Shown: piece by piece, positions 4,090 through 13,645 of the stretch
Layout: each line of letters begins with the position of its first letter
How positions within the stretch are numbered: position 1 is the stretch's first letter
Assembly: GCA_029946125.1 (NCBI GenBank)
Contig: JAQSDX010000023.1
Span: 1 to 51,691 of the forward strand
Reading direction: 5' to 3'
From: Candidatus Methylobacter titanis
GTDB taxonomy: Bacteria; Pseudomonadota; Gammaproteobacteria; Methylococcales; Methylomonadaceae
DNA length: 51,691 nt
Made by a program: the position numbers and the translations under genes
Notes under the pieces: generated by a model
The model's database searches: none
Seen by the model: the letters and a program-made list of their open reading frames with translations, nothing else
What the model was told of the DNA's origin: nothing

Positions 4090-5277
4090 TTATTTACCTT
4101 TCGATCTGAACTTACTATAAAAGCCTTTCAGTTTTCCCGACTCTTTTTTGACTTCCTTTTCAGACTGTTGTTCGTCATCCAATAACAGCGGCTCCTCCAA
4201 TTTTACGTCTACCCACTGCGGCTCTGTTTTAATCGGCTGTTGCTTATTACCGAACAGATTTTTGAATTTTCCCAGCGATCCTTTAGCAGCAATAACCGGT
4301 TGCGGATCGATGTCCGCTGCTACAGCAGGCGCTTGTTCAAACACCGCTTGAGGCTTTATTTCTGACGGCATTGGCGCAAGCGCTTCTTCAGTCGGAGCTT
4401 CTTTCTGCCAACTAACCGCTGCATGCGATACGTCACTGACTTGAATAACCGGGCTATCCGGCTTTGGCTGTGCAACCGGGGACTCTTCAATAACCGGGCT
4501 TTCTTCCAAGCTTATGGGTTGTTGCGAAGTAGTAACGGTCTTAATCGTTTCCTGTTCCGGTTCTACCGGGCGAGTCATATCCGCCTGGTATTTTTTCAGG
4601 GTGTCGGATAAAACCTGGTGAGCATTATGCTGCTGCTGTTGCAGCAGGGTTTTTTGTTCTTCAAACGCCACCTCTAGCCTGGAAAGCTGACTGGTATGGT
4701 TATCTAACGTCGTTTGCAAAGCCTTAATCAGCACATCCTTTTCGACCAGTTTTGTCGCCTCCGCCTGACAGGCTTGTTGTAACTCGATTTTTGCTTGCTG
4801 CTCGGTACGCAGACGCTCAGTTAATTGCGTAATGACCTTATCATGCTGCTGCCACAATGAGTCCGCCTTAACATCTTCACTGGCCAGTAATGGCCGTTCG
4901 CCAAGATCGAAACTTGTCGCCAGTGTCTGAATAATTCCGGCAATCTGCTGGTTGCGTTGATAAAGCAACTGCTCCAGCGTTAAAGCCCTTTGTGTTTCAC
5001 CTTGAGCTGCCGATTGGGCTTTTTCCCTGTGCATAACAGCCTCCGCCAATTCCTCCTGGTTGTGCTGTAACTGTTGTTGTGCGGCATCGAGCTTTTCGAT
5101 GCCAGCCTTCTCACTGGCAACTTTTGCTCTTTTTACCGAGGCAATTCGGATACTGTAAAGCAAGGCGGTCAACAGCCAGACCGCTAACGCTAATGCCCCA
5201 GCATACAACGGATTGTTCAGGGTCAAAAGATACCATTCGGAAAAAAGCGCTTTGATAAAGGGCAGATAGGTTTGCAT
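4090..5277 (-). CDS. Membrane-anchored coiled-coil protein, function unknown
   Basis: A 395-residue protein in three parts. Residues about 20-42 form one hydrophobic segment (NPLYAGALALAVWLLTALLY) that should anchor it in the inner membrane. Residues about 50-235 are glutamine- and glutamate-rich with heptad-like leucines, typical of a long coiled coil. The remainder is a Pro/Glu-rich linker ending in a lysine-rich tail (KLKGFYSKFRSKGK). No catalytic motif is visible. The shape suggests a scaffold or tether at the cytoplasmic membrane, but that is inference. Start ATG at 5277 has GAGGA eleven bases upstream. It is transcribed away from the tRNA-Met element. Confidence 0.75.
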   Translation of the reverse strand: MQTYLPFIKALFSEWYLLTLNNPLYAGALALAVWLLTALLYSIRIASVKRAKVASEKAGIEKLDAAQQQLQHNQEELAEAVMHREKAQSAAQGETQRALTLEQLLYQRNQQIAGIIQTLATSFDLGERPLLASEDVKADSLWQQHDKVITQLTERLRTEQQAKIELQQACQAEATKLVEKDVLIKALQTTLDNHTSQLSRLEVAFEEQKTLLQQQQHNAHQVLSDTLKKYQADMTRPVEPEQETIKTVTTSQQPISLEESPVIEESPVAQPKPDSPVIQVSDVSHAAVSWQKEAPTEEALAPMPSEIKPQAVFEQAPAVAADIDPQPVIAAKGSLGKFKNLFGNKQQPIKTEPQWVDVKLEEPLLLDDEQQSEKEVKKESGKLKGFYSKFRSKGK

Positions 5278-5557
5278 GGGAGTTCCTCAATAATAAGACT
5301 GTTAACTATTGTACTAGGAGTACTGTTTACGATACTGATATTTGTCAGTCCCCGTACAAATGCTTCAAAGGTTTTTTGTTGATTTCAGGCTCAGTTTACC
5401 ACTGATTGACCTTTTGTTTACCGGTGAAAATTGCTGTATTTGTAGGGTTTCTGGCTTGAGTTGGGGATGGGTATTGCTGTGCTTGATTCCGACAAAATAC
5501 CTACAACAATTGGGTAGGCATTTAGTACGGATGGTGCTGAATAATCAGTGCAGAGTG
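5278..5557. other. Intergenic sequence left of the integrated element
   Basis: Nothing here reads as a convincing gene. An 80-codon frame (5342-5581) runs into the tRNA fragment and has no recognisable domain. The right end (up to 5557) was presumably the original downstream flank of tRNA-Met before the element integrated. The promoter of the minus-strand coiled-coil gene must lie in the first 100 bases. Confidence 0.4.
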
Positions 5558-5608
5558 TATGGTGGCGATAGGTGGACTTGAACCACCGACCCCGGGGTTA
5601 TGAATCCC
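5558..5608 (-). repeat. attL: duplicated 3' part of tRNA-Met
   Basis: This 51-bp stretch is identical to 12164-12214. Read on the minus strand it is the anticodon loop to CCA end of tRNA-Met, but the 5' half is absent, so it is not a functional tRNA. It marks the left junction of the integrated element. Confidence 0.92.
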
Positions 5609-5893
5609 AAAAACAGCAAAAACCACAACACACCACAACAAACAATAATAACTTAATCAACAGCTTAACCGATTACCCTTGTTGCTGATTGTTGCCATTT
5701 ATTGCCCTTTTTTATAGGCAATTGCAGCATGAGTGCAGCATGAGTGCAGCATGATGTTATACTGAAACCGTAGAAACAAAGCGGCCTCGCAGGTGTATCA
5801 GCACCAAGCAAGGCCTTACCACTAACTTAATTCAGGGTTAAGCAATGGCAGGCCTATCATATCAAAGCCGGTTGCTATCCTATAGGGGCAATT
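5609..5893. other. Leader of the integrase gene with arm-type repeats, a promoter candidate and a hairpin
   Basis: This gene-free stretch holds three 11-bp direct repeats (5723-5754), an extended -10-like sequence TGTTATACT (5755-5763) directly after them, and a stem-loop in the transcribed leader formed by GGCCTCGC (5783-5790) and GCAAGGCC (5808-5815), with an inner GGTG/CACC pair. The layout suggests that integrase bound to its repeats could cover its own promoter. Confidence 0.5.
5723..5754. promoter_or_regulatory. Candidate integrase arm-type sites, three 11-bp repeats
   Basis: TGCAGCATGAG is repeated at 5723, 5734 and 5745 (the last copy ends GAT). Two related copies with the same 11-bp period lie at the opposite end of the element (12091-12111). 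Such repeats flanking both attachment sites are what tyrosine integrases with an arm-binding domain use. The function is inferred from position. Confidence 0.6.
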
Positions 5894-6955
5894 ATGGCAA
5901 ATATTACAGAACGCATAAGCAAGACCGGAACCAAGACCTATACAGCAATCATTCGCTTGAAAGGTTATCCAACACAAACCGCTACCTTCAAACGCTTAAC
6001 CGATGCTAAAAAGTGGATTCAAGACACCGAAAGCGCAATAAGGGAAGGCCGACACTTCAAAACCGTTGAAGCAAAAAAACACACGGTTGATGAAATGATT
6101 GACCGCTACCTATCCGGCGCAAACCTTACCAAAGTTCAAGACGACCACACCGGCCTACACCTTAGACGCTGGAAGGAGGAAATCGGTTATATGTTGCTAG
6201 CCGATGTGACAGCCGACACTTTAACGCTGGTTAAAGAAAAACTCTTGACCGAGGATTTTAGGGGCAAGCCACGCAGCCCGACCACTGTATTGAGATACAT
6301 GGCCTCACTGAGTACGGCTTTTACGGTAGCCGTTCGGGATTGGGCATGGCTGGAAGATTCGCCCATGAAGAACATCAAAAAACCCAAGGCAGCGCGTGGG
6401 CGTGTTCGGTTCTTGGATGATGGCGAAAGAGACCGCCTTTTGATTGCTTGCAAGGAATCCAGAAACAAGATTCTTTATACTTGCGTCATTTTGGCAATCA
6501 GCACCGGCATGAGACAGGCCGAACTATTTAGCTTGAAATGGATAGACGTTAATTTAAAAGACGGCTTCCTAATCCTGCACGAAACCAAGAACGGCGAACG
6601 GCGGCGCGTCCCCCTGGCAGGGCATGGTCTGGAACTGTTACGCGAATATGCCAAAGTTAGGCGACTGGACACCCCGCTATTATTCCCCGGCATTAAAAAC
6701 CCACTGAACCCTATTGACTTACAAACCCCCTGGGAAACCGCAAGGAAACACGCAGGGATAACCGATTTTACATGGCATGACCTGAGACATTGCACGGCAA
6801 GTTATTTGCTCATGAATGGCGCGTCCCTGGCTGAAATAGCCGAAATCCTGGGACATAAAACCCTGCAAATGGTGAAGCGTTACGCCCACCTATCAGACGG
6901 CCATGTGAGCAACGTGGTTGCCAGTATGAACGCTAAAATATTCGGGGGTGTTTGA
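5894..6955 (+). CDS. int: Tyrosine recombinase (integrase) of the tRNA-Met element
   Basis: A 353-residue phage-type integrase. The N-terminal part (ISKTGTKTYTAIIRLKG) fits an arm-binding domain, followed by a SAM-like core-binding domain (residues about 60-150). The catalytic domain shows the family set: Arg in STGMRQAELFSLKW, His and Arg in WHDLRHCTASYLL, and the final His and Tyr in LGHKTLQMVKRYAHLS. It should recombine the tRNA-Met attachment sites 5558-5608 and 12164-12214. Start ATG at 5894 follows AGGGGCAATT. The stop overlaps the next gene (TGATG), implying translational coupling. Confidence 0.93.
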   Translation: MANITERISKTGTKTYTAIIRLKGYPTQTATFKRLTDAKKWIQDTESAIREGRHFKTVEAKKHTVDEMIDRYLSGANLTKVQDDHTGLHLRRWKEEIGYMLLADVTADTLTLVKEKLLTEDFRGKPRSPTTVLRYMASLSTAFTVAVRDWAWLEDSPMKNIKKPKAARGRVRFLDDGERDRLLIACKESRNKILYTCVILAISTGMRQAELFSLKWIDVNLKDGFLILHETKNGERRRVPLAGHGLELLREYAKVRRLDTPLLFPGIKNPLNPIDLQTPWETARKHAGITDFTWHDLRHCTASYLLMNGASLAEIAEILGHKTLQMVKRYAHLSDGHVSNVVASMNAKIFGGV

Positions 6956-7749
6956 TGACGAATCTGACACCAAACAGCAAAGAGAATGTTTTTGATAGTC
7001 CTGAGCAGGAAGCCGAAATCAACAAGAGTCGGCAAAAAGCCATTGCAGAAATTAGAGCAAGCAGGCGACCGGAAGATTTTCTTGTAAAAGATTTTCTTAA
7101 TACTTCAATTACATATTTACTTAAGGAAGAGCTTTCAAAAGATGGCAATATAAAATATTGTCAGCTCTATACATGGCTGAATAGGCTAAATGCGGAGGAA
7201 GCTAGGATTAATCTCCTGCCTGTCGTTAAGTACAATGAAGAATCGAAAAAACTAGATTCTCTTTTCGAAAAGAAAATGAGAATTGAGTGGTTTATTGATG
7301 GGTGCAAAGGAACATTTGAAGAGTGGTGCAAGACCAACGGGAAGCAGACAGGGAAGGCCAACCAATGCGACACCACAGAACAGGCAAGCGGCAAGAATGG
7401 CGCGGGTAGCCAAGCAGTCACCGAACCGGCAAGCACAAAGCCCATGCAAACCAACGGTAACGATTTTGAATTTTCCGGCCTGTTAAATATCCCCGCAAAA
7501 ATAGACGACTGGTTTACTGTTATTGATGATATGACGCGCACCTTCCATAAGGATAATGAAAGAGTACCGAACGAACCCCAAGCATGGGCGCAGTTATGGA
7601 CAAGTCCGCCGTCCGGTTACGGGATAACAATCAGGGGCGTTTGCCTGGGTATGCCGGGGGTTAATCCGCTATCTCGTGGAGCATTTAAGAAGAGGTGGAA
7701 AAGTTATACAACCAAAAAAACCCCAATAAGTCCCGATAACGGATTTTAA
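6955..7749 (+). CDS. Unknown protein coupled to the integrase gene
   Basis: A 264-residue protein I do not recognise. The ATG at 6955 overlaps the integrase stop (TGATG), so the two are probably co-translated. The first 120 residues are charged and helical. Residues about 125-165 are a low-complexity linker rich in G, Q, T and A. The C-terminal 90 residues form a second block (NEPQAWAQLWTSPPSGYGIT and a basic tail KKRWKSYTTKK) that might bind nucleic acid. It is cargo of the integrated element. A role in excision control or DNA binding would fit the position, but nothing in the sequence proves it. Confidence 0.75.
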   Translation: MTNLTPNSKENVFDSPEQEAEINKSRQKAIAEIRASRRPEDFLVKDFLNTSITYLLKEELSKDGNIKYCQLYTWLNRLNAEEARINLLPVVKYNEESKKLDSLFEKKMRIEWFIDGCKGTFEEWCKTNGKQTGKANQCDTTEQASGKNGAGSQAVTEPASTKPMQTNGNDFEFSGLLNIPAKIDDWFTVIDDMTRTFHKDNERVPNEPQAWAQLWTSPPSGYGITIRGVCLGMPGVNPLSRGAFKKRWKSYTTKKTPISPDNGF

Positions 7750-7787
7750 GTCCCGCCACCGTTTCAGAGCCGACAACAAACAGAAAC

Positions 7788-7859
7788 TACCCCCAACCGA
7801 GCCGCAAAGCTTGGGAACTCCTGCAAACACAGGAACACAAAACAAACCCATTGGGGGTA
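7788..7859 (+). promoter_or_regulatory. Inverted repeat that would hide the ribosome binding site of the AlpA-like gene
   Basis: TACCCCCAA (7788-7796) is a perfect complement of TTGGGGGTA (7851-7859). The second arm contains the only plausible ribosome binding site (GGGGG) of the gene starting at 7864. Between the arms is a small TCCTG/CAGGA hairpin. Pairing would block translation start, so this may be a translational switch. It is inferred from sequence only. Confidence 0.45.
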
Positions 7860-7863
7860 TTAA

Positions 7864-8076
7864 ATGACAGCTCAAATTCTAATTTATTTAACAGTAAGTC
7901 AATTCACTGAAAAGCACCACGCCTTTACTGTTGGCGGCCTCCGTGCATGGATTTTTAACGGAGCAAGAAACGGCTTAAATCAGTCTGGCGCAATTGTCAG
8001 AATCGGGCGCAAAGTCCTTATTGATGAAACCAAGTTCTTTGCTTGGATTGAAGCTCAAAACAAGGTGGCAGCGTAA
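7864..8076 (+). CDS. Small helix-turn-helix protein, AlpA/excisionase-like
   Basis: A 70-residue protein. Its central part (TVGGLRAWIFNGARNGLNQS) and the pattern of a start Leu/Ile strand, a helix, then IRIGRKVLIDETKFFAWIE resemble small MerR/AlpA-type DNA-binding proteins, which in P4-like elements activate integrase or act as excisionase. The residues VRIGRKVLID match the wing-and-strand end typical of that group. It is followed with a 1-base overlap by the next gene. I infer a regulator or recombination directionality role for the element. Confidence 0.65.
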   Translation: MTAQILIYLTVSQFTEKHHAFTVGGLRAWIFNGARNGLNQSGAIVRIGRKVLIDETKFFAWIEAQNKVAA

Positions 8077-8507
8077 TGATTATCTCAAAGGTCATTCGCG
8101 ACCACTTCCGTCACATAACACGCGCTGACTATGGTGATATAAAACCATTGCTTGGGTCTGAAAACGTCATTTTCCCGAGAGTCGGCAGTTTGCAATCTAG
8201 GTCACTTAGGCGACTGCTTCCGGCTGGCCGAATGCTATCACATCGTGAGTTTGATTTTGCATCCCATAGCTACCGCTTAGGCGGCTATATCGGTTCTTTA
8301 AGAGACAAGGGGTGGACGATTGTTAATCATGATGAGGCAGTTTTAACAAAGGATGTTGTACCCAGAAGCGTTATGTTTACCCGGTATGAATTATTTGCAG
8401 AGTTTGCGCCGGAGCTAATGGAGAGAGTCGAAGCATTTTGCAAAGCAGTTGATGATTTTGAAGCTAAAGCCGCCGCCTGGTACAGCAATACCAAGGCGGC
8501 AGCATGA
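8076..8507 (+). CDS. Unknown small protein of the integrated element
   Basis: A 143-residue protein whose ATG shares one base with the stop of the preceding gene (TAATG), and whose stop overlaps the ATG of the next frame (ATGA). Residues 50-100 contain LLPAGRMLSHREFDFASHSY and YIGSLRDKGWTIVNHDEAV, which could form a small winged-helix fold (SLRDKGWTI looks like a recognition helix leading into a wing), as in phage-type helix-turn-helix proteins. The C terminus is helical and charged. Tight coupling says it is co-expressed with the AlpA-like protein and the primase. Confidence 0.7.
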   Translation: MIISKVIRDHFRHITRADYGDIKPLLGSENVIFPRVGSLQSRSLRRLLPAGRMLSHREFDFASHSYRLGGYIGSLRDKGWTIVNHDEAVLTKDVVPRSVMFTRYELFAEFAPELMERVEAFCKAVDDFEAKAAAWYSNTKAAA

Positions 8508-8611
8508 CAAAACAAATGCACATTAAGTTTAACAGAGTCACCGCCAACATAAAGGCCGGATTTATCCGTATGGCGGTATGGTTGTCGGCGGTTGCCGTAG
8601 GCGGGGTATAA
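8504..8611 (+). CDS. 35-residue putative membrane peptide between two element genes
   Basis: An ATG (8504) overlaps the stop of the preceding gene (ATGA), and its TAA (8609-8611) abuts the ATG of the primase gene at 8612. This is exactly the geometry of a translationally coupled gene. The product begins MTKQMHIKFNRVTANIKAG and ends in a hydrophobic stretch (FIRMAVWLSAVAVGGV), enough for one short transmembrane helix with a positively charged N terminus. It is too short for most gene finders. Without it the primase ATG would be separated from the upstream gene by 104 bases. Confidence 0.5.
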   Translation: MTKQMHIKFNRVTANIKAGFIRMAVWLSAVAVGGV

Positions 8612-10939
8612 ATGACAACCTTGAATGATGCAATTAGAGAGGTGGGCTTAGACCCACCCGACGATATACAGCCCGGTAAAACTACCCGCTTCTCGACTAA
8701 CGGAAAGTCTCACGACAAATCAGGCTGGGTTCATGTATTCCCTGACGGAAACGGTGCGGCGTTCGGTTGCTGGCGTTCTGATGTTCAAGGCACATGGCAG
8801 GAACAGCGCGACAAGCCCTTAAACGAGATGGAGCAAGCCAGTTTTAGGCGTAAGATTATTGCCGCAAAAAAGGCTATGAATGAAGAGCGCGAAACCGGCT
8901 ATAAGGATGCAGCGGGTAAGGCGCAGGTCGAATGGGAGGCCGCGCCACCTGCACCGGATACGCATCCTTACTTGGTGAAAAAAGGTATTCAACCGCGCAT
9001 GGCGCGAGTCGATGCTAATGGTCGGTTGCTGATTCCAGTTTATGGGATTGATGGCACTCTTCAAAGCCTCCAACGAATCGCCGCCGATAGTTCAAAGCGG
9101 TTCTTTGCTGGCGGTAAAATGCGCCACGGTCACGTATGGATAGGGGAGCCAGAAAACGGAGCAACATTGCTCTTGTGTGAAGGGTTCGCCGATGCTGACA
9201 GCTTGCACCGGGCTACAGGGTTCGCGGTCTGTGTGAGTTTTTCGGCAGGCAATTTAAAGCCGGCGGCCGAGATGGTACGCAAACAATACCCGGCGGCGCG
9301 TTTGTTGGTATGCGGGGATGATGACATTCAGACCACGGGCAACCCTGGACGCACCAAGGCCACCGAAGCAGCGCAAGCCGTGGCCGCTGGCGTGGCGTTT
9401 CCGTTATCGGCTGGTGACTTCAACGACCTAGCTCAAGCCGAAGGTCTGGAAGCGGTACGGGTTCAAGTTGGGCAGGCTTTGGGGGAGCTGCAAGTTATAC
9501 CCGCCACGTTTGCGGTTCCGGCGTTATCTGGCACTGATGCAAGGGATGGAACAAACAGCACCCGCCCTTTGTCTGAACTGGGTAACGCCTTACGCTTATT
9601 GGATGCTCACGGCGGCGACATTCACTATGTACACGATGCTAAGGCGTGGTTGCGGTGGCGTGGTGGTGCGTGGAATTGGGATGTAGACGGCGCGACCGTT
9701 AGAGGTTCAGCGGCACAACTACCGGCGGAAATTTATAACGAGGGCGGATTACATTTGGTGGAATCAATGCACTTCGCAAAGTGGTCAAGGACTTCGCAGA
9801 AAGAGAACACCATAGAGGCGGCAGCCTCATTGCTTAAGGACTTCGAGGAAGTACGCTTGCCATTGGCGCTAGTGGATGCCGATTTATTCAAAGTTGGCCT
9901 TGATGGTGGGCGCATGGTTCTTGAGCTGAAAACAGGAAGGACACGACCGGCACAGCAAAGCGACTTTATCACCAAGGCGGTAATGGTCAATCATCTGGGC
10001 GAATCGGTCAAGGCGGTACGCTGGCAGGCATTTTTAACGCAAGTGTTTGGCAATGACCCTGAGTTAATCGACTGGGTTAAACGCTGGTGTGGCTACTTAC
10101 TGACCGGGGCAACGTCTGAACAAGTGTTCGTGTTCTGTTTTGGACTTGGTGCTAATGGCAAGTCCGTACTTGCCGACCTTTTACGCTATATCCTGGGCGA
10201 CTATGCCCGCGCTATTTCATCGGACACGCTGACCGAATCGAAACGGGCAGCCGGGGGCGCAACGCCTGACCTTTATGATTTGATAGGCGCACGGTTGGCT
10301 ATGAGCGCAGAAACCGAGGATGGGGCAGCACTAGCCGAGTCGTTAATTAAAAGTCTTGTGGCTGGTGACACCATGCCCGTGCGAAAGCTTCATGGAGCAT
10401 TTGTACAGATGACACCTCAGTTTAAGTTGATGATGCTGGGCAATCATAAGCCTGTAATCAAGGGCAATGATTACGGAATCTGGCGGCGGGTGCGACTGAT
10501 ACCATTTAAACGCACCTTCAAACCGGAAGAGCGCGACCCGGCACTATTGGACAAACTCAAAGCTGAATCCGCCCATATCCTGGCGTGGATGGTCGAGGGC
10601 TGTTTAGATTGGCAACGGCGGGGCTTAAGTGATGTTCCGGCCACCATACGGCAAGCAACTGGCGAATATCAGGAAGAGCAGGATTACATAGGCCGCTGGT
10701 TGTCGGAGTGTTGCAAGCTGTCACCAAGTCTTGAAACATCATCGACAGACATTTACAGCAATTATAAGCAATGGTGTATGGATAACGGTTTAAGGCCAGC
10801 CAGTAATATAAGTCTTGGTAGGCGGTTATCTGAGCGTGGTTTTAGTAGCCGTCGTTCAAGCGGGAAGAGCTTGTGGGCTGGGCTTGCTGTGAATGATTCG
10901 TCCTATTCAAACGATTACAGAACAGCAAGCGGACGGTAA
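8612..10939 (+). CDS. P4-type primase-helicase (Toprim plus D5-like helicase)
   Basis: A 775-residue replication protein. The N-terminal third has primase features: an initial GKSHDKSGWVHVFPDG segment, then a Toprim-like region (LLLCEGFADADSLHRATG with the Glu, and RLLVCGDDD with the Asp pair). After a linker comes the D5/P4 alpha-type helicase: Walker A FGLGANGKSVLADLLRYILG, and the closing motif MMLGNHKPVIKGNDYGIWRR. This layout is that of P4 alpha-family proteins, which prime, unwind and recognise the origin. Here it should replicate the excised element. It is not a chromosomal primase: its neighbours are element genes. Confidence 0.9.
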   Translation: MTTLNDAIREVGLDPPDDIQPGKTTRFSTNGKSHDKSGWVHVFPDGNGAAFGCWRSDVQGTWQEQRDKPLNEMEQASFRRKIIAAKKAMNEERETGYKDAAGKAQVEWEAAPPAPDTHPYLVKKGIQPRMARVDANGRLLIPVYGIDGTLQSLQRIAADSSKRFFAGGKMRHGHVWIGEPENGATLLLCEGFADADSLHRATGFAVCVSFSAGNLKPAAEMVRKQYPAARLLVCGDDDIQTTGNPGRTKATEAAQAVAAGVAFPLSAGDFNDLAQAEGLEAVRVQVGQALGELQVIPATFAVPALSGTDARDGTNSTRPLSELGNALRLLDAHGGDIHYVHDAKAWLRWRGGAWNWDVDGATVRGSAAQLPAEIYNEGGLHLVESMHFAKWSRTSQKENTIEAAASLLKDFEEVRLPLALVDADLFKVGLDGGRMVLELKTGRTRPAQQSDFITKAVMVNHLGESVKAVRWQAFLTQVFGNDPELIDWVKRWCGYLLTGATSEQVFVFCFGLGANGKSVLADLLRYILGDYARAISSDTLTESKRAAGGATPDLYDLIGARLAMSAETEDGAALAESLIKSLVAGDTMPVRKLHGAFVQMTPQFKLMMLGNHKPVIKGNDYGIWRRVRLIPFKRTFKPEERDPALLDKLKAESAHILAWMVEGCLDWQRRGLSDVPATIRQATGEYQEEQDYIGRWLSECCKLSPSLETSSTDIYSNYKQWCMDNGLRPASNISLGRRLSERGFSSRRSSGKSLWAGLAVNDSSYSNDYRTASGR

Positions 10940-11070
10940 GCGAGTGCAGACAGTGCAGATAAACGGCGTTTTCATATAGTTTTCCTGTAATTTTTTCCGT
11001 GAGGACTTTATGAAAAACGGCAATCATCTGCACTATCTGCACTCGAATTATTAAAAACCAATGTTATTTA

Positions 11071-11143
11071 TTTAATATTTTAAACAGTAATCCATTTAAT
11101 ATATTAAACGTGCTACACTCGCTCATCATTTAATATATTAAAC
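11071..11143. promoter_or_regulatory. Three palindromic iterons upstream of the RHH-like gene (operator or replication origin)
   Basis: Copies of TTTAATATWTTAAAC lie at 11071-11085, 11095-11109 and 11129-11143, immediately before the gene at 11155. The second and third are identical, and their core TTTAATATATTAAA is a perfect palindrome. Start-to-start distances are 24 and 34 bp. Two more copies follow the gene. They could be autoregulatory operators for the encoded protein or origin iterons for the primase-helicase. Confidence 0.75.
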
Positions 11144-11154
11144 AGGTAAGAATC

Positions 11155-11745
11155 ATGCAATATGACGGAACGGGTAAGCTGGCCGAAGCGATAGCGGAAC
11201 TATGCGGGGTATCAACAAAAAGTCAGGCACGAATTGCCGAGCTGATTAAACATGCCAAGGCCGAGCTTGGGATAACCAGCAAAGCAAAATTGATGCCGGT
11301 TGGTGTGAAGCTGGCAATTTATCGCTGGCATTATGACCGATTAAACCCCGCTCAAGATGTTAAACAGGATGATGAAAAGCCGGTATTGTCACCGGATAGC
11401 CTTGTTTATGATGTTAAACAGATTGAGGATGTTCAGGATGACCCCGTTCAAAATGTTAAACAAGATAATCCAATTATGGATGATGATGTTATAGCCGACC
11501 TTGTTTATGATTTTAAACAGATTCACTTTGCAGTGGCTATTCCGCACAACGGCAAGCCAAGGCGCACCACTGTCATGCTGGAAGGCTACCTTGTAAAGGC
11601 ATTGCAGCGTAAACACGAATTAACCGATAACGCAGCAATCAGGGCATGGATTGAACAGGCCATTAAAGCTGATGGTGACAGGTTCGACAGCAGCGCACCA
11701 TTAACACGGCAAGTGAAGCGTATTATTATTGAATCGTTTGTTTAA
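11155..11745 (+). CDS. Ribbon-helix-helix-like DNA-binding protein with internal VKQ repeats
   Basis: A 196-residue protein. The C-terminal part (RRTTVMLEGYLVKALQRKHE followed by LTDNAAIRAWIEQAI) looks like a ribbon-helix-helix fold: a short strand, then two helices. The N terminus (LAEAIAELCGVSTKSQARIAELIKHA) may be a second helical DNA-contact region. The acidic middle has four copies of a short motif, (D/N)VKQD or YDVKQI/YDFKQI. Its gene is bracketed by five palindromic iterons, so an autoregulator or an origin/partition-binding protein is the likely role. It is the last gene before the right attachment site. Confidence 0.65.
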   Translation: MQYDGTGKLAEAIAELCGVSTKSQARIAELIKHAKAELGITSKAKLMPVGVKLAIYRWHYDRLNPAQDVKQDDEKPVLSPDSLVYDVKQIEDVQDDPVQNVKQDNPIMDDDVIADLVYDFKQIHFAVAIPHNGKPRRTTVMLEGYLVKALQRKHELTDNAAIRAWIEQAIKADGDRFDSSAPLTRQVKRIIIESFV

Positions 11746-11862
11746 TATTTTAAATAACAATTATCTGATAAATGCAGGGGCAGTCCCGTTTAACAACCAA
11801 CCTGTGTGACGTTATAACATCACACTAAAGCGCGGCTTCATCACTTGTTTAATATTTTAAAC
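11741..11862. repeat. Two further iteron copies downstream of the RHH-like gene
   Basis: TTTAATATTTTAAAT at 11741-11755 overlaps the stop codon of the gene at 11155-11745, and TTTAATATTTTAAAC lies at 11848-11862. They match the three upstream copies at 12 or more of 15 positions. Five copies within 800 bp is far above chance for such a specific 15-mer. Confidence 0.7.
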
Positions 11863-12124
11863 AACAATAACCGGCGTTACGGCGGTTTCGTAGAGTGGCT
11901 TCTTCGGCAATTGGAATGCTAAGGTTAAGGCAAGGATTGAAAACTTCAGAAAACATCAAGGTTACGGTCGCCATTATGGATACCGTGCTAGTATTTGTTA
12001 GTATTTGTTAGGTACATCAATGCCCCAGCTAACCATGCTGGTTTTTTGTGCCTGAATTGTTGCAGTTGGTGCGGATGTTTTTTTTAGAATTGCAGCAGGA
12101 GTGCAGCACGGGATATTTCAGGCA
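11863..12124. other. Gene-free right end of the integrated element
   Basis: No gene is seen. The stretch contains a tandem duplication around 11990-12010 (TAGTATTTGT twice) and the right-hand arm-type repeats at 12091-12111. This is where integrase and host factors would be expected to bind. Confidence 0.45.
12091..12111. promoter_or_regulatory. Candidate integrase arm-type sites, right end
   Basis: TGCAGCAGGAG at 12091 and TGCAGCACGG at 12102 repeat with the same 11-bp period as the three copies beside attL (5723-5754). A weaker copy (TTGCAGTTGG) precedes them near 12060. Confidence 0.55.
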
Positions 12125-12157
12125 TAAAAAAACCACTTGGTTTAATCCTAAGTGGTT
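12125..12157 (-). terminator. Rho-independent terminator for tRNA-Met, supplied by the element
   Basis: On the minus strand AACCACTT (12157-12150) pairs with AAGTGGTT (12138-12131), followed by a run of T (seven, 12131-12125). It lies just downstream of the tRNA and inside the integrated element. Confidence 0.8.
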
Positions 12158-12163
12158 GATTTA

Positions 12164-12214
12164 TATGGTGGCGATAGGTGGACTTGAACCACCGACCCCG
12201 GGGTTATGAATCCC
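12164..12214 (-). repeat. attR: 3' part of the intact tRNA-Met
   Basis: Identical over 51 bp to 5558-5608. It begins in the sequence just past the CCA end and stops within the anticodon stem. The intact tRNA extends beyond it to 12242. Confidence 0.92.
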
Positions 12215-12242
12215 GTGCTCTAACCAGCTGAGCTACATCGCC
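12166..12242 (-). tRNA. tRNA-Met (anticodon CAT)
   Basis: Read on the minus strand, a 77-base cloverleaf begins GGCGATGTAGCTCAGCTGG, has the anticodon loop ATTCATAAC, a TTCAAGTC T-loop, and an encoded CCA. The acceptor stem GGCGATG pairs with TATCGCC (one G-T pair). It is the attachment target of the integrated element, which rebuilt the 3' end exactly, so the gene stays functional. Confidence 0.95.
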
Positions 12243-12270: not shown

Positions 12271-12299
12271 ATTATAAGTACCCGCTCTTCCTTTGTCAA
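12271..12299 (-). promoter_or_regulatory. Consensus sigma-70 promoter of tRNA-Met
   Basis: On the minus strand TTGACA (12299-12294) is followed after exactly 17 bases by TATAAT (12276-12271): both hexamers are perfect consensus with optimal spacing. Transcription should begin near 12264, about 20 bases before the tRNA. The -35 box overlaps the ychF stop codon (12296-12298). A 10-bp inverted repeat (12260-12269/12281-12290) overlies the spacer. Confidence 0.85.
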
Positions 12300-13387
12300 A
12301 CGTTGAATCTGAAATGAACGACGTCGCCGTCTTTAACGATATAATCTTTGCCTTCTAGTCGCCATTTTCCGGCGTCTTTTGCGCCCTGCTCGCCTTTATA
12401 GTCGATAAAGTCCTGGTAAGCGATGACTTCGGCACGAATAAAGCCTTTTTCAAAGTCACTGTGAATCACACCGGCCGCCTGGGGTGCGGTCGCACCGACC
12501 GGAATAGTCCAGGCCCTGACTTCTTTTACTCCTGCAGTAAAATAAGTCGCCAGATTCAGTAGTTCATATCCGGCTCTTACGACGCGATTCAAGCCGGGTT
12601 CTTCCAGTCCCAGATCGTCCAGGAATTCCTTTTTTTCTGCTTCATCCAGCTGGGCTATTTCCGCCTCTATGGCGGCGCAAATCGGTACGACCATCGCACC
12701 TTCTTTGTCGGCCAGGGCTTGTACTTTATCCAGCAAGGGATTGTTCTCGAAACCGTCATCCTGAACATTGGCAATGTACATAGCCGGTTTGAGCGTCATC
12801 AGGCACAGATCCCTAATCAGGGCTTTTTCATCCTCGGTTAACGGCAGGGTTCGTGCGGGTTCTCCTAAGTCCAATTGCTTGAACACCTTTTCCAGCACAT
12901 CTTTTTTAGCTTGTTCATCCTTGTTGCCGGTTCTGGCCGCTTTACTCGCACGTAACAGGGCTTTTTCAACGGAAGCCATATCGGCCAAGGCTAATTCGGT
13001 ATTAATGATTTCAATGTCGGAAAGCGGATCGATTTTTCCGGCGACATGGATGACATTATCATCATGAAAGCAACGCACCACATGAGCAATCGCATCTGTT
13101 TCACGAATATTGGCTAAAAACTGATTGCCCAAGCCTTCACCTTTTGATGCGCCCGCAACTAAACCGGCGATGTCTACAAATTCAATCGTGGTAGGAAACA
13201 CGCGCTCGGGTTTTACAATCTCGGCCAGCTTGTCCATTCTAGCGTCAGGCACGGGAACGACGCCTACATTGGGGTCAATGGTGCAAAAAGGGTAATTCTC
13301 GGCCGCGATTTTCGCGCGGGTTAATGCATTAAATAAGGTCGATTTTCCAACGTTGGGTAAACCAACGATTCCACAATACAGCGCCAT
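12296..13387 (-). CDS. ychF: YchF/OLA1-family ribosome-binding ATPase
   Basis: A 363-residue Obg-like ATPase, the same length as E. coli YchF. It begins [20 protein letters not shown] with the Walker A loop, has the G3-like [20 protein letters not shown] segment, a coiled-coil insertion (residues about 130-200), and the C-terminal TGS domain ending [17 protein letters not shown]. It binds the ribosome and favours ATP over GTP. An upstream ATG at 13435 would add 16 residues not seen in the family, so I chose 13387. It lies just upstream of tRNA-Met on the same strand, but that tRNA has its own promoter. Confidence 0.95.
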
Positions 13388-13645
13388 AGAGTTCTCTGAG
13401 ATTTTAGAAGAAGTGAATGCAGCAAGATGAATCAAGCCGAAACAAAGCAGGGATTATACAAGCTATGGCTTTAATCTAAAAAACTAAAAGCAAATTATGG
13501 GCGGCTAACCTGTATGATTTTTTGCCTAATCGGTGTGAAAAAGAGCGCCAGGTTTTTAGCTTTTTTGTTCACGCTGTTCGTGGCAAATAATCGAATAACT
13601 AGCTACACTGTCATCTTAAGCTTACCTGCCAAAATCAATACGGAC

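Follow-up and report, generated by a model that had tools for sequence, protein, structure and literature searches.

A satellite-like integrated element of Methylobacter with operator-like sites inside the gene of a ribbon-helix-helix-like protein

A 51,691-nucleotide stretch of the genome of Candidatus Methylobacter titanis (contig JAQSDX010000023.1, positions 1 to 51,691; the window) contains a 6.6-kb element that is enclosed by an exact, tRNA-Met-derived direct repeat of 51 bp. We read this element as an integrated phage satellite of methanotrophs that resembles the phage-inducible chromosomal islands (PICI) and phage-inducible chromosomal minimalist islands (PICMI), with a probability of roughly 0.65. 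The initial annotation regarded it as a candidate for an undescribed system. This holds in part: the scaffold is of a known kind, outside the described hosts and sites of PICMI, and the apparently new part is a ribbon-helix-helix (RHH)-like protein with operator-like sites in the linker encoded by its own gene. For such in-gene operators, or RHH proteins with intragenic sites, no description is apparent from titles and opening abstract lines of the open-licence papers listed.

Results

The repeat copies lie at 5558-5608 (attL, a copy of the 3′ part of the tRNA) and 12164-12214 (attR, inside tRNA-Met). In the congener locus L152, the sequence corresponding to the left flank of the element (4208-5549, 90% identity) runs directly into the tRNA core, which is an empty site; therefore, the 6.6 kb are an insertion. 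The repeat, the integrase and the P4-type primase of the initial annotation are all borne out.

The element encodes six proteins, all on one strand and transcribed rightward, in the order int, int-overlapping gene, AlpA-like gene, winged-helix-like gene, TOPRIM-SF3 primase-helicase gene, predicted replication origin and RHH-like gene. The proteins were scanned against Pfam, PHROGs and NCBIfam, and five of them (integrase left out) with PADLOC. The tyrosine integrase (5894-6955, + strand) matches PF00589 (9.3e-33) and phrog_1 (1.1e-61). It is overlapped by 1 nt by a gene (6955-7749, + strand) that encodes 264 amino acids from its ATG and has the position of the PICMI 'IOLG'; proteins at this position diverge strongly among elements (11-36% identity). 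A further gene, added here to those already listed, encodes a 70-aa protein (7864-8076, + strand) that is kept in relatives and is weakly assigned as AlpA/excisionase-like (DUF6462 6.4e-4, which is below the cut-off; excise 0.19; phrog_9668 0.28). The next gene (8076-8507, + strand), at the PICMI 'up1' position, encodes a 143-aa protein for which AlphaFold2 (AF2) predicted a winged-helix-like order with a long C-terminal helix (H39-47, H56-63, H68-77, E82-90, E98-106, H112-142) at moderate confidence: the mean predicted local distance difference test score (pLDDT) was 73.6 in the best model and 48-74 over the five models. Relatives of this protein are present in 46 of 311 genomes of the order. 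The large gene at 8612-10939 (+ strand; pri-rep) combines a TOPRIM primase with a D5_N/SF3 helicase and a Pox_D5-like end (TIGR01613, Toprim_3, D5_N, Pox_D5) and belongs to the P4 family (TIGR01613, E 2e-76 to 1.6e-75). No significant name was obtained for the 264-aa, 143-aa or RHH-like protein in Pfam, PHROGs, NCBIfam or PADLOC, and the 264-aa protein had no family match at all. Structural, lytic and mobilisation families gave no significant match among the six proteins, and PADLOC recognised no defence system among the five. This agrees with the earlier statement that capsid, tail, packaging and mobilisation genes are missing and that the element is neither a prophage nor a normal integrative and conjugative element; structural, packaging and conjugation genes were not found among the six proteins.

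Straight after the primase stop codon, a pair of short iterons is followed by an AT-rich core and then by the pair in inverted orientation (10941-11045); we predict this structure to be the replication origin. A strong inverted pair of this kind is present in 14 of 16 stretches, with iteron letters that vary from element to element. In a retest of 14 stretches, from which L044 and L045 were left out, 12 scored 15-26, compared to a maximum of 13 in 840 shuffles; the highest score among 43 tiles of the element was 14. The 'iterons' noted initially are of two kinds: those of this predicted, primase-type origin and, separate from them, palindromes of 16 bp that lie within the RHH-like gene and on either side of it.

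The RHH-like gene (11155-11745, + strand) encodes 196 amino acids. AF2 predicts a helical N domain, a disordered linker and a C domain with a hairpin and an RHH-like fold (mean pLDDT 79.9, predicted TM score 0.42; linker, residues 69-111, below 50). The designation RHH-like is taken from the order of predicted structural elements and their resemblance to RHH proteins. When 27 RHH proteins were scanned singly, only scattered, weak Pfam matches and no match to sequences of the PDB were obtained. Relatives are found in 35 of 311 genomes of the order, and a pattern scan of genome contigs gave 21 loci, all in Methylococcales. Among 369 genomes of the class, the N domain was detected in the own genome and in one weak match; 72,556 plasmid and 50,697 phage records contained no match to the protein. 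The same genome harbors a second related element beside tRNA-Arg (L044; contig C96:15000-23144), in which the contig ends inside the primase gene. In this one pair, dN/dS (the ratio of non-synonymous to synonymous substitution rates) of the folded RHH domains is 0.17 and 0.11. These ratios point to purifying selection on the folded domains, though the window retains no downstream gene of the recurring kinds described below. In three other loci, L092, L061 (the same gene as in L144) and L067, another C-terminal end (WGGxRxGxGRK..TVTxRVP) follows the N domain and operator repeats are absent, a case of domain swapping.

The 16-bp palindromes surround the RHH promoter and recur in frame inside the RHH gene. 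Three operator-like sites lie upstream, O1 (11070-11085), O2 (11094-11109), which would overlap the -35 element, and O3 (11128-11143). Four are in the gene: site 1 (11350-11365, four mismatches to the consensus), site 2 (11404-11419, coding for VYDVKQ), site 3 (11446-11461) and site 4 (11503-11518, coding for VYDFKQ). One more straddles the stop codon (11740-11755) and another is downstream (11847-11862). In the 3.5-Mb genome, all ten exact matches to the pattern fall into the window's element and the second, contig-cut element, so that their own DNA is the sole visible target of the RHH proteins; with one mismatch allowed, 17 of 21 do so, and a reversed pattern as control gives 2.

Among 35 non-redundant RHH genes, 16 have class-1 sites (GTTTA-N6-TAAAC) and 14 have class-2 sites (GTGAA-N6-TTCAC), counted at up to two mismatches with half-site scoring; near-identical elements such as L037/L045 are not independent. 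The remaining five are fragments or have other ends, and have no site array. The background in shuffles is 0.2-1.2 sites per region. Array-bearing genes have one to nine in-gene sites, of which 111 of 115 are in frame 0. Sites of either class occur in the coding linker and, in all but three genes, also upstream. The encoded peptide is V-[YQ]-[DN]-V-K-Q or V-E-I-I-S-Q, and its codons hardly vary. In class 1 (14 genes, 38 copies), V is GTT in 36/36 cases (43% elsewhere), D is GAT in 28/28 (61%) and K is AAA in 36/37 (56%); in class 2 (15/17 genes, 64 copies), S is TCA in 61/61 (28% elsewhere) and the first I is ATA in 50/50 (39%). Repeat copies within these counts are not independent of each other. 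Between the window and L044, the linker has a dS of 0.14 and a dN of 0.12, with four synonymous changes in 31 sites (one pair, few changes), whereas dS of the folded domains is 0.44 and 0.52. Judged from sequence, the upstream region and the coding linker share one palindrome that is under constraint at the DNA level. Sites are present in the linker, with nearly fixed codons, as well as upstream, and thus the linker, predicted to be disordered, appears to double as an operator array. The RHH strand that would face the DNA separates the site classes in 26 of 27 rows: it reads RTTxM in 12/12 class-1 rows and R[QSE]V[IV][AS] in 14/15 others. We infer that the protein is an autorepressor that would assemble with the DNA of its gene into a nucleoprotein complex.

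Between O2 and O3, on the + strand, lies a predicted -10 element, TACACT (11114-11119), with two mismatches and an extended TG. Thirty genes have two upstream sites; when seven with other spacings and one duplicate were left out, 18 of the 22 O2-O3 spacers of 17-20 nt contained a -10-like hexamer (shuffles: mean 3.3, maximum 9).

Among the 33 RHH genes with 1.2 kb of sequence or more, 18 have a recurring small gene within 1 kb downstream, an adjacency count made without a control. Five of these genes are like the terminase small subunit (TerS) and match the corresponding PHROGs with best E values from 2e-11 to 8e-10, nine belong to the DUF5681 family, three to a 197-aa family without a known link to packaging and one to an 89-aa family first seen in L044. 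Two phage genes with a weak likeness (E 2e-4 and 6e-4) to the DUF5681 protein of L083 are located upstream of the terminase large subunit gene with one gene between; a third phage record stops short of this neighbourhood. The 197-aa family has members in L086, L078, L034 and L196, either after the RHH gene or in the vicinity of tRNA-Met; the members scanned gave no noteworthy match in Pfam or PHROGs. In L044, the 89-aa gene lies 19 bp beyond the RHH gene and has relatives in L032 and L038.

The primase matches 53 of 101 relatives at E ≤ 0.001, mostly over part of its length; the close, full-length matches are in the same genus. The relatives belong to Methylobacter and other Methylococcales. 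In L037 (6545-8867) and L038 (731-3069) the primase gene is split over two overlapping frames. The elements are located at or beside tRNA-Met (L033, L034, L038), tRNA-Lys (L032), tRNA-Thr (L035), tRNA-Arg (L037), tRNA-Pro (L039) and tmRNA (L043). End repeats measure 38-100 bp in L032, L033 and L034, and 40 bp in L039; those of L035 and L043 are short (18-20 bp), and L037 and L038 have none that convinced us. Annotated phages and plasmids contain primase relatives only below 60% identity, and no record matches over 80% of the length. Three or more putative replication modules are found with the RHH gene: TOPRIM-SF3, a different SF3 protein together with a single-strand DNA-binding protein, and a 127-aa protein that is weakly DUF1376-like (E 0.013, below the cut-off). 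In L077, L081, L083, L084 and L192, no TOPRIM-SF3 primase is labelled and the ~127-aa protein takes its place; these are possibly a different minimal replicon.

Predicted arm-type direct repeats of the integrase, with TGCAGCATGAG units (repeat family D5), lie at 5723-5751, and another of this family is near attR (12091-12108); L032, L033, L034 and L039 have short repeats of their own near both ends. A terminator-like hairpin (12131-12157, + strand) is located beside attR and tRNA-Met (CAT) itself is at 12166-12242 on the - strand. The tRNA core was seen at 17 of 23 loci, and sequence similar to the hairpin adjoins the tRNA at 14 of the 17 (window counted, by eye). The neighboring gene (12296-13435), which we take to be ychF, was found in 23/23 genomes of the genus searched. 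tRNA-Met is no more than a possible hotspot: of 16 congener regions next to the ychF-like gene, some of them short, only L185, L192 and L196 contained element genes. The first of these (L185:7827-15948, in G011) has, near tRNA-Met, int, alpA-like, hth127-family and DUF5681-family genes and a 960-aa protein that matches lytic tail proteins (phrog_2013, 8e-12).

Discussion

With respect to described satellite families, the architecture of the element is that of PICI and PICMI, but tested hallmarks of both are not seen here. The P4-family primase-helicase (TIGR01613) is shared with satellite P4. P4 has genes of the sid/psu/delta type for capsid control and transactivation; in contrast, the six proteins gave no match of this kind. 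Charybdis elements are described as lacking hallmark genes, at least in an excerpt of their description. PICMI, as far as they are presented in the sections of PMC10803314 available to us, consist of int, an int-adjacent or -overlapping gene (common, not universal), alpA, a small gene and prim, average ~6.7 kb in Vibrionaceae and have no capsid-remodelling or identifiable packaging gene; a virulent helper phage induces and packages them, and they integrate at fis in Vibrionaceae, with at most one per genome, and the variants in other species are incomplete, with no complete ones outside Vibrio. The window's element likewise has int, alpA (by weak similarity and position) and prim co-localised, a gene overlapping int, no structural genes and a size of 6.6 kb. 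However, it is located at tRNA-Met and not at fis, the host belongs to the Methylococcales and has two elements in one genome (the second partial, on C96), there is an RHH/operator module, some relatives have TerS-like genes, and PADLOC recognised no defence gene. Gram-negative PICI, according to the parts of PMC6092414 seen, are typically 12-15 kb in size, have an AT-rich region with a set of iterons on either side, located 3′ of the gene for the initiator, use an att site that is never used by prophages and are induced by phage and specifically packaged. Here the likeness is in the integrase, the AlpA-type regulator (weak), the replication module pri-rep, the single direction, the missing structural and lytic genes, terS in some relatives and, in layout only, the predicted origin directly 3′ of the primase gene, where a set of iterons stands on each side of the AT-rich core; the differences are the RHH module and a size of half the typical one. 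The fis site, a Vibrionaceae host, a single copy and 12-15 kb are not what we find and therefore the element is, on its sequence, satellite-like and not a member of PICI or PICMI.

The initial annotation left the choice between a minimal satellite that needs a helper and an integrating plasmid. The satellite is best supported because the gene order is that of PICI/PICMI, the origin has their layout and some relatives have TerS-like genes. In such a satellite, a helper phage would induce the AlpA/primase operon, the integrase together with the AlpA-like and int-overlapping proteins would excise a circle, the primase-helicase would replicate it from 10941-11045 and helper particles would package it. 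The RHH dimer would bind O1-O3 and shut its own promoter, and the in-gene sites would extend the complex over the gene by looping, as a roadblock or as a compact nucleoprotein body. Since in many relatives a small gene, TerS-like or of another kind, comes directly after the RHH gene, the complex may time or target packaging. It is tempting to go further and to regard the RHH gene as a self-addressed DNA body whose linker codons spell its own binding sites, gene and protein together marking satellite DNA for the helper terminase, with swappable TerS-like partners downstream; this we offer as a speculation that is rather unlikely to hold in full. A precedent for an in-gene packaging signal is the pac site of P22, which lies in the TerS gene, as stated in the part of PMC9611059 consulted.

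Several observations weigh against the satellite reading or against the role assigned to the RHH gene. No helper phage was found in the own genome, where PF03354 was absent and phrog_2 weak, other terminase families not being searched. Pattern scans of IMG/VR, which reach close relatives only, gave no hit for the primase or the 143-aa protein and one contig for the RHH protein. The AlpA assignment stays below family cut-offs, and Foldseek returned no match at E ≤ 0.001 for the 143-aa or RHH model. Fifteen of the 33 RHH genes, the window's included, have no downstream gene of the kinds described, and no TerS-like gene or credible remnant follows 11745. The window's own -10 element, with its two mismatches, does not count among the 18, and a general promoter scan gave 9 sites, compared to 9.6 in shuffles, without the RHH -10. 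Matches to the sites of the other class amount to 0-3 per gene, and L132, with three of each, is ambiguous by sites alone. Finally, the class-2 genes of L037, L045 and L130 have all their sites within the gene and none in the 150 nt upstream (the start in L130 is uncertain), which argues against promoter repression as the sole role.

The most serious competitor for the RHH module, which we nevertheless consider doubtful, is a plain autorepressor of a cargo gene with the in-gene sites as ordinary auxiliary operators and the window's copy as a remnant. The -10-like hexamers between O2 and O3 would fit, and auxiliary intragenic operators are known from lac and gal. Up to nine in-gene sites per gene, their nearly fixed codons, the low dS of the linker and the three genes without an upstream site do not. 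A replication initiator of the lambda O type, with the in-gene palindromes as origin, appears improbable. As with lambda O, the sites are within the gene for their presumed binding protein and change together with that protein, and in L037, L045 and L130 all sites are in the gene; the RHH-like domain and the extra upstream sites differ from lambda O. This origin was set aside because the iteron structure, a better and separate candidate, appeared straight after the primase gene. Moreover, the RHH gene is combined with several putative replication modules, and L032 and L035, which have end repeats (18 bp only in L035), contain the primase of the window's element but no RHH gene; this argues against a required initiator role.

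An integrating plasmid, on the other hand, would make the RHH gene and its sites a single-protein, centromere-like segregation locus that stabilises the excised form. The confinement of the exact sites to the RHH loci of two elements is consistent with this, as is purifying selection on the folded domains with no downstream gene left in the window. However, neither a partner ATPase nor a mobilisation protein was matched among the six proteins and the plasmid and phage records have no RHH match, so that we give this explanation little credence.

If the satellite reading is correct, minimal phage satellites would extend to methane-oxidizing bacteria, for which we found neither phage satellites nor phage-inducible chromosomal islands described in the open-licence literature. 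Selection appears to act on one stretch of DNA in two ways, on the unstructured protein linker that it encodes and on the operator array that it forms. The sites are of two specificities, which have apparently changed together with the RHH strand, and this makes the pairing of protein and DNA directly testable.

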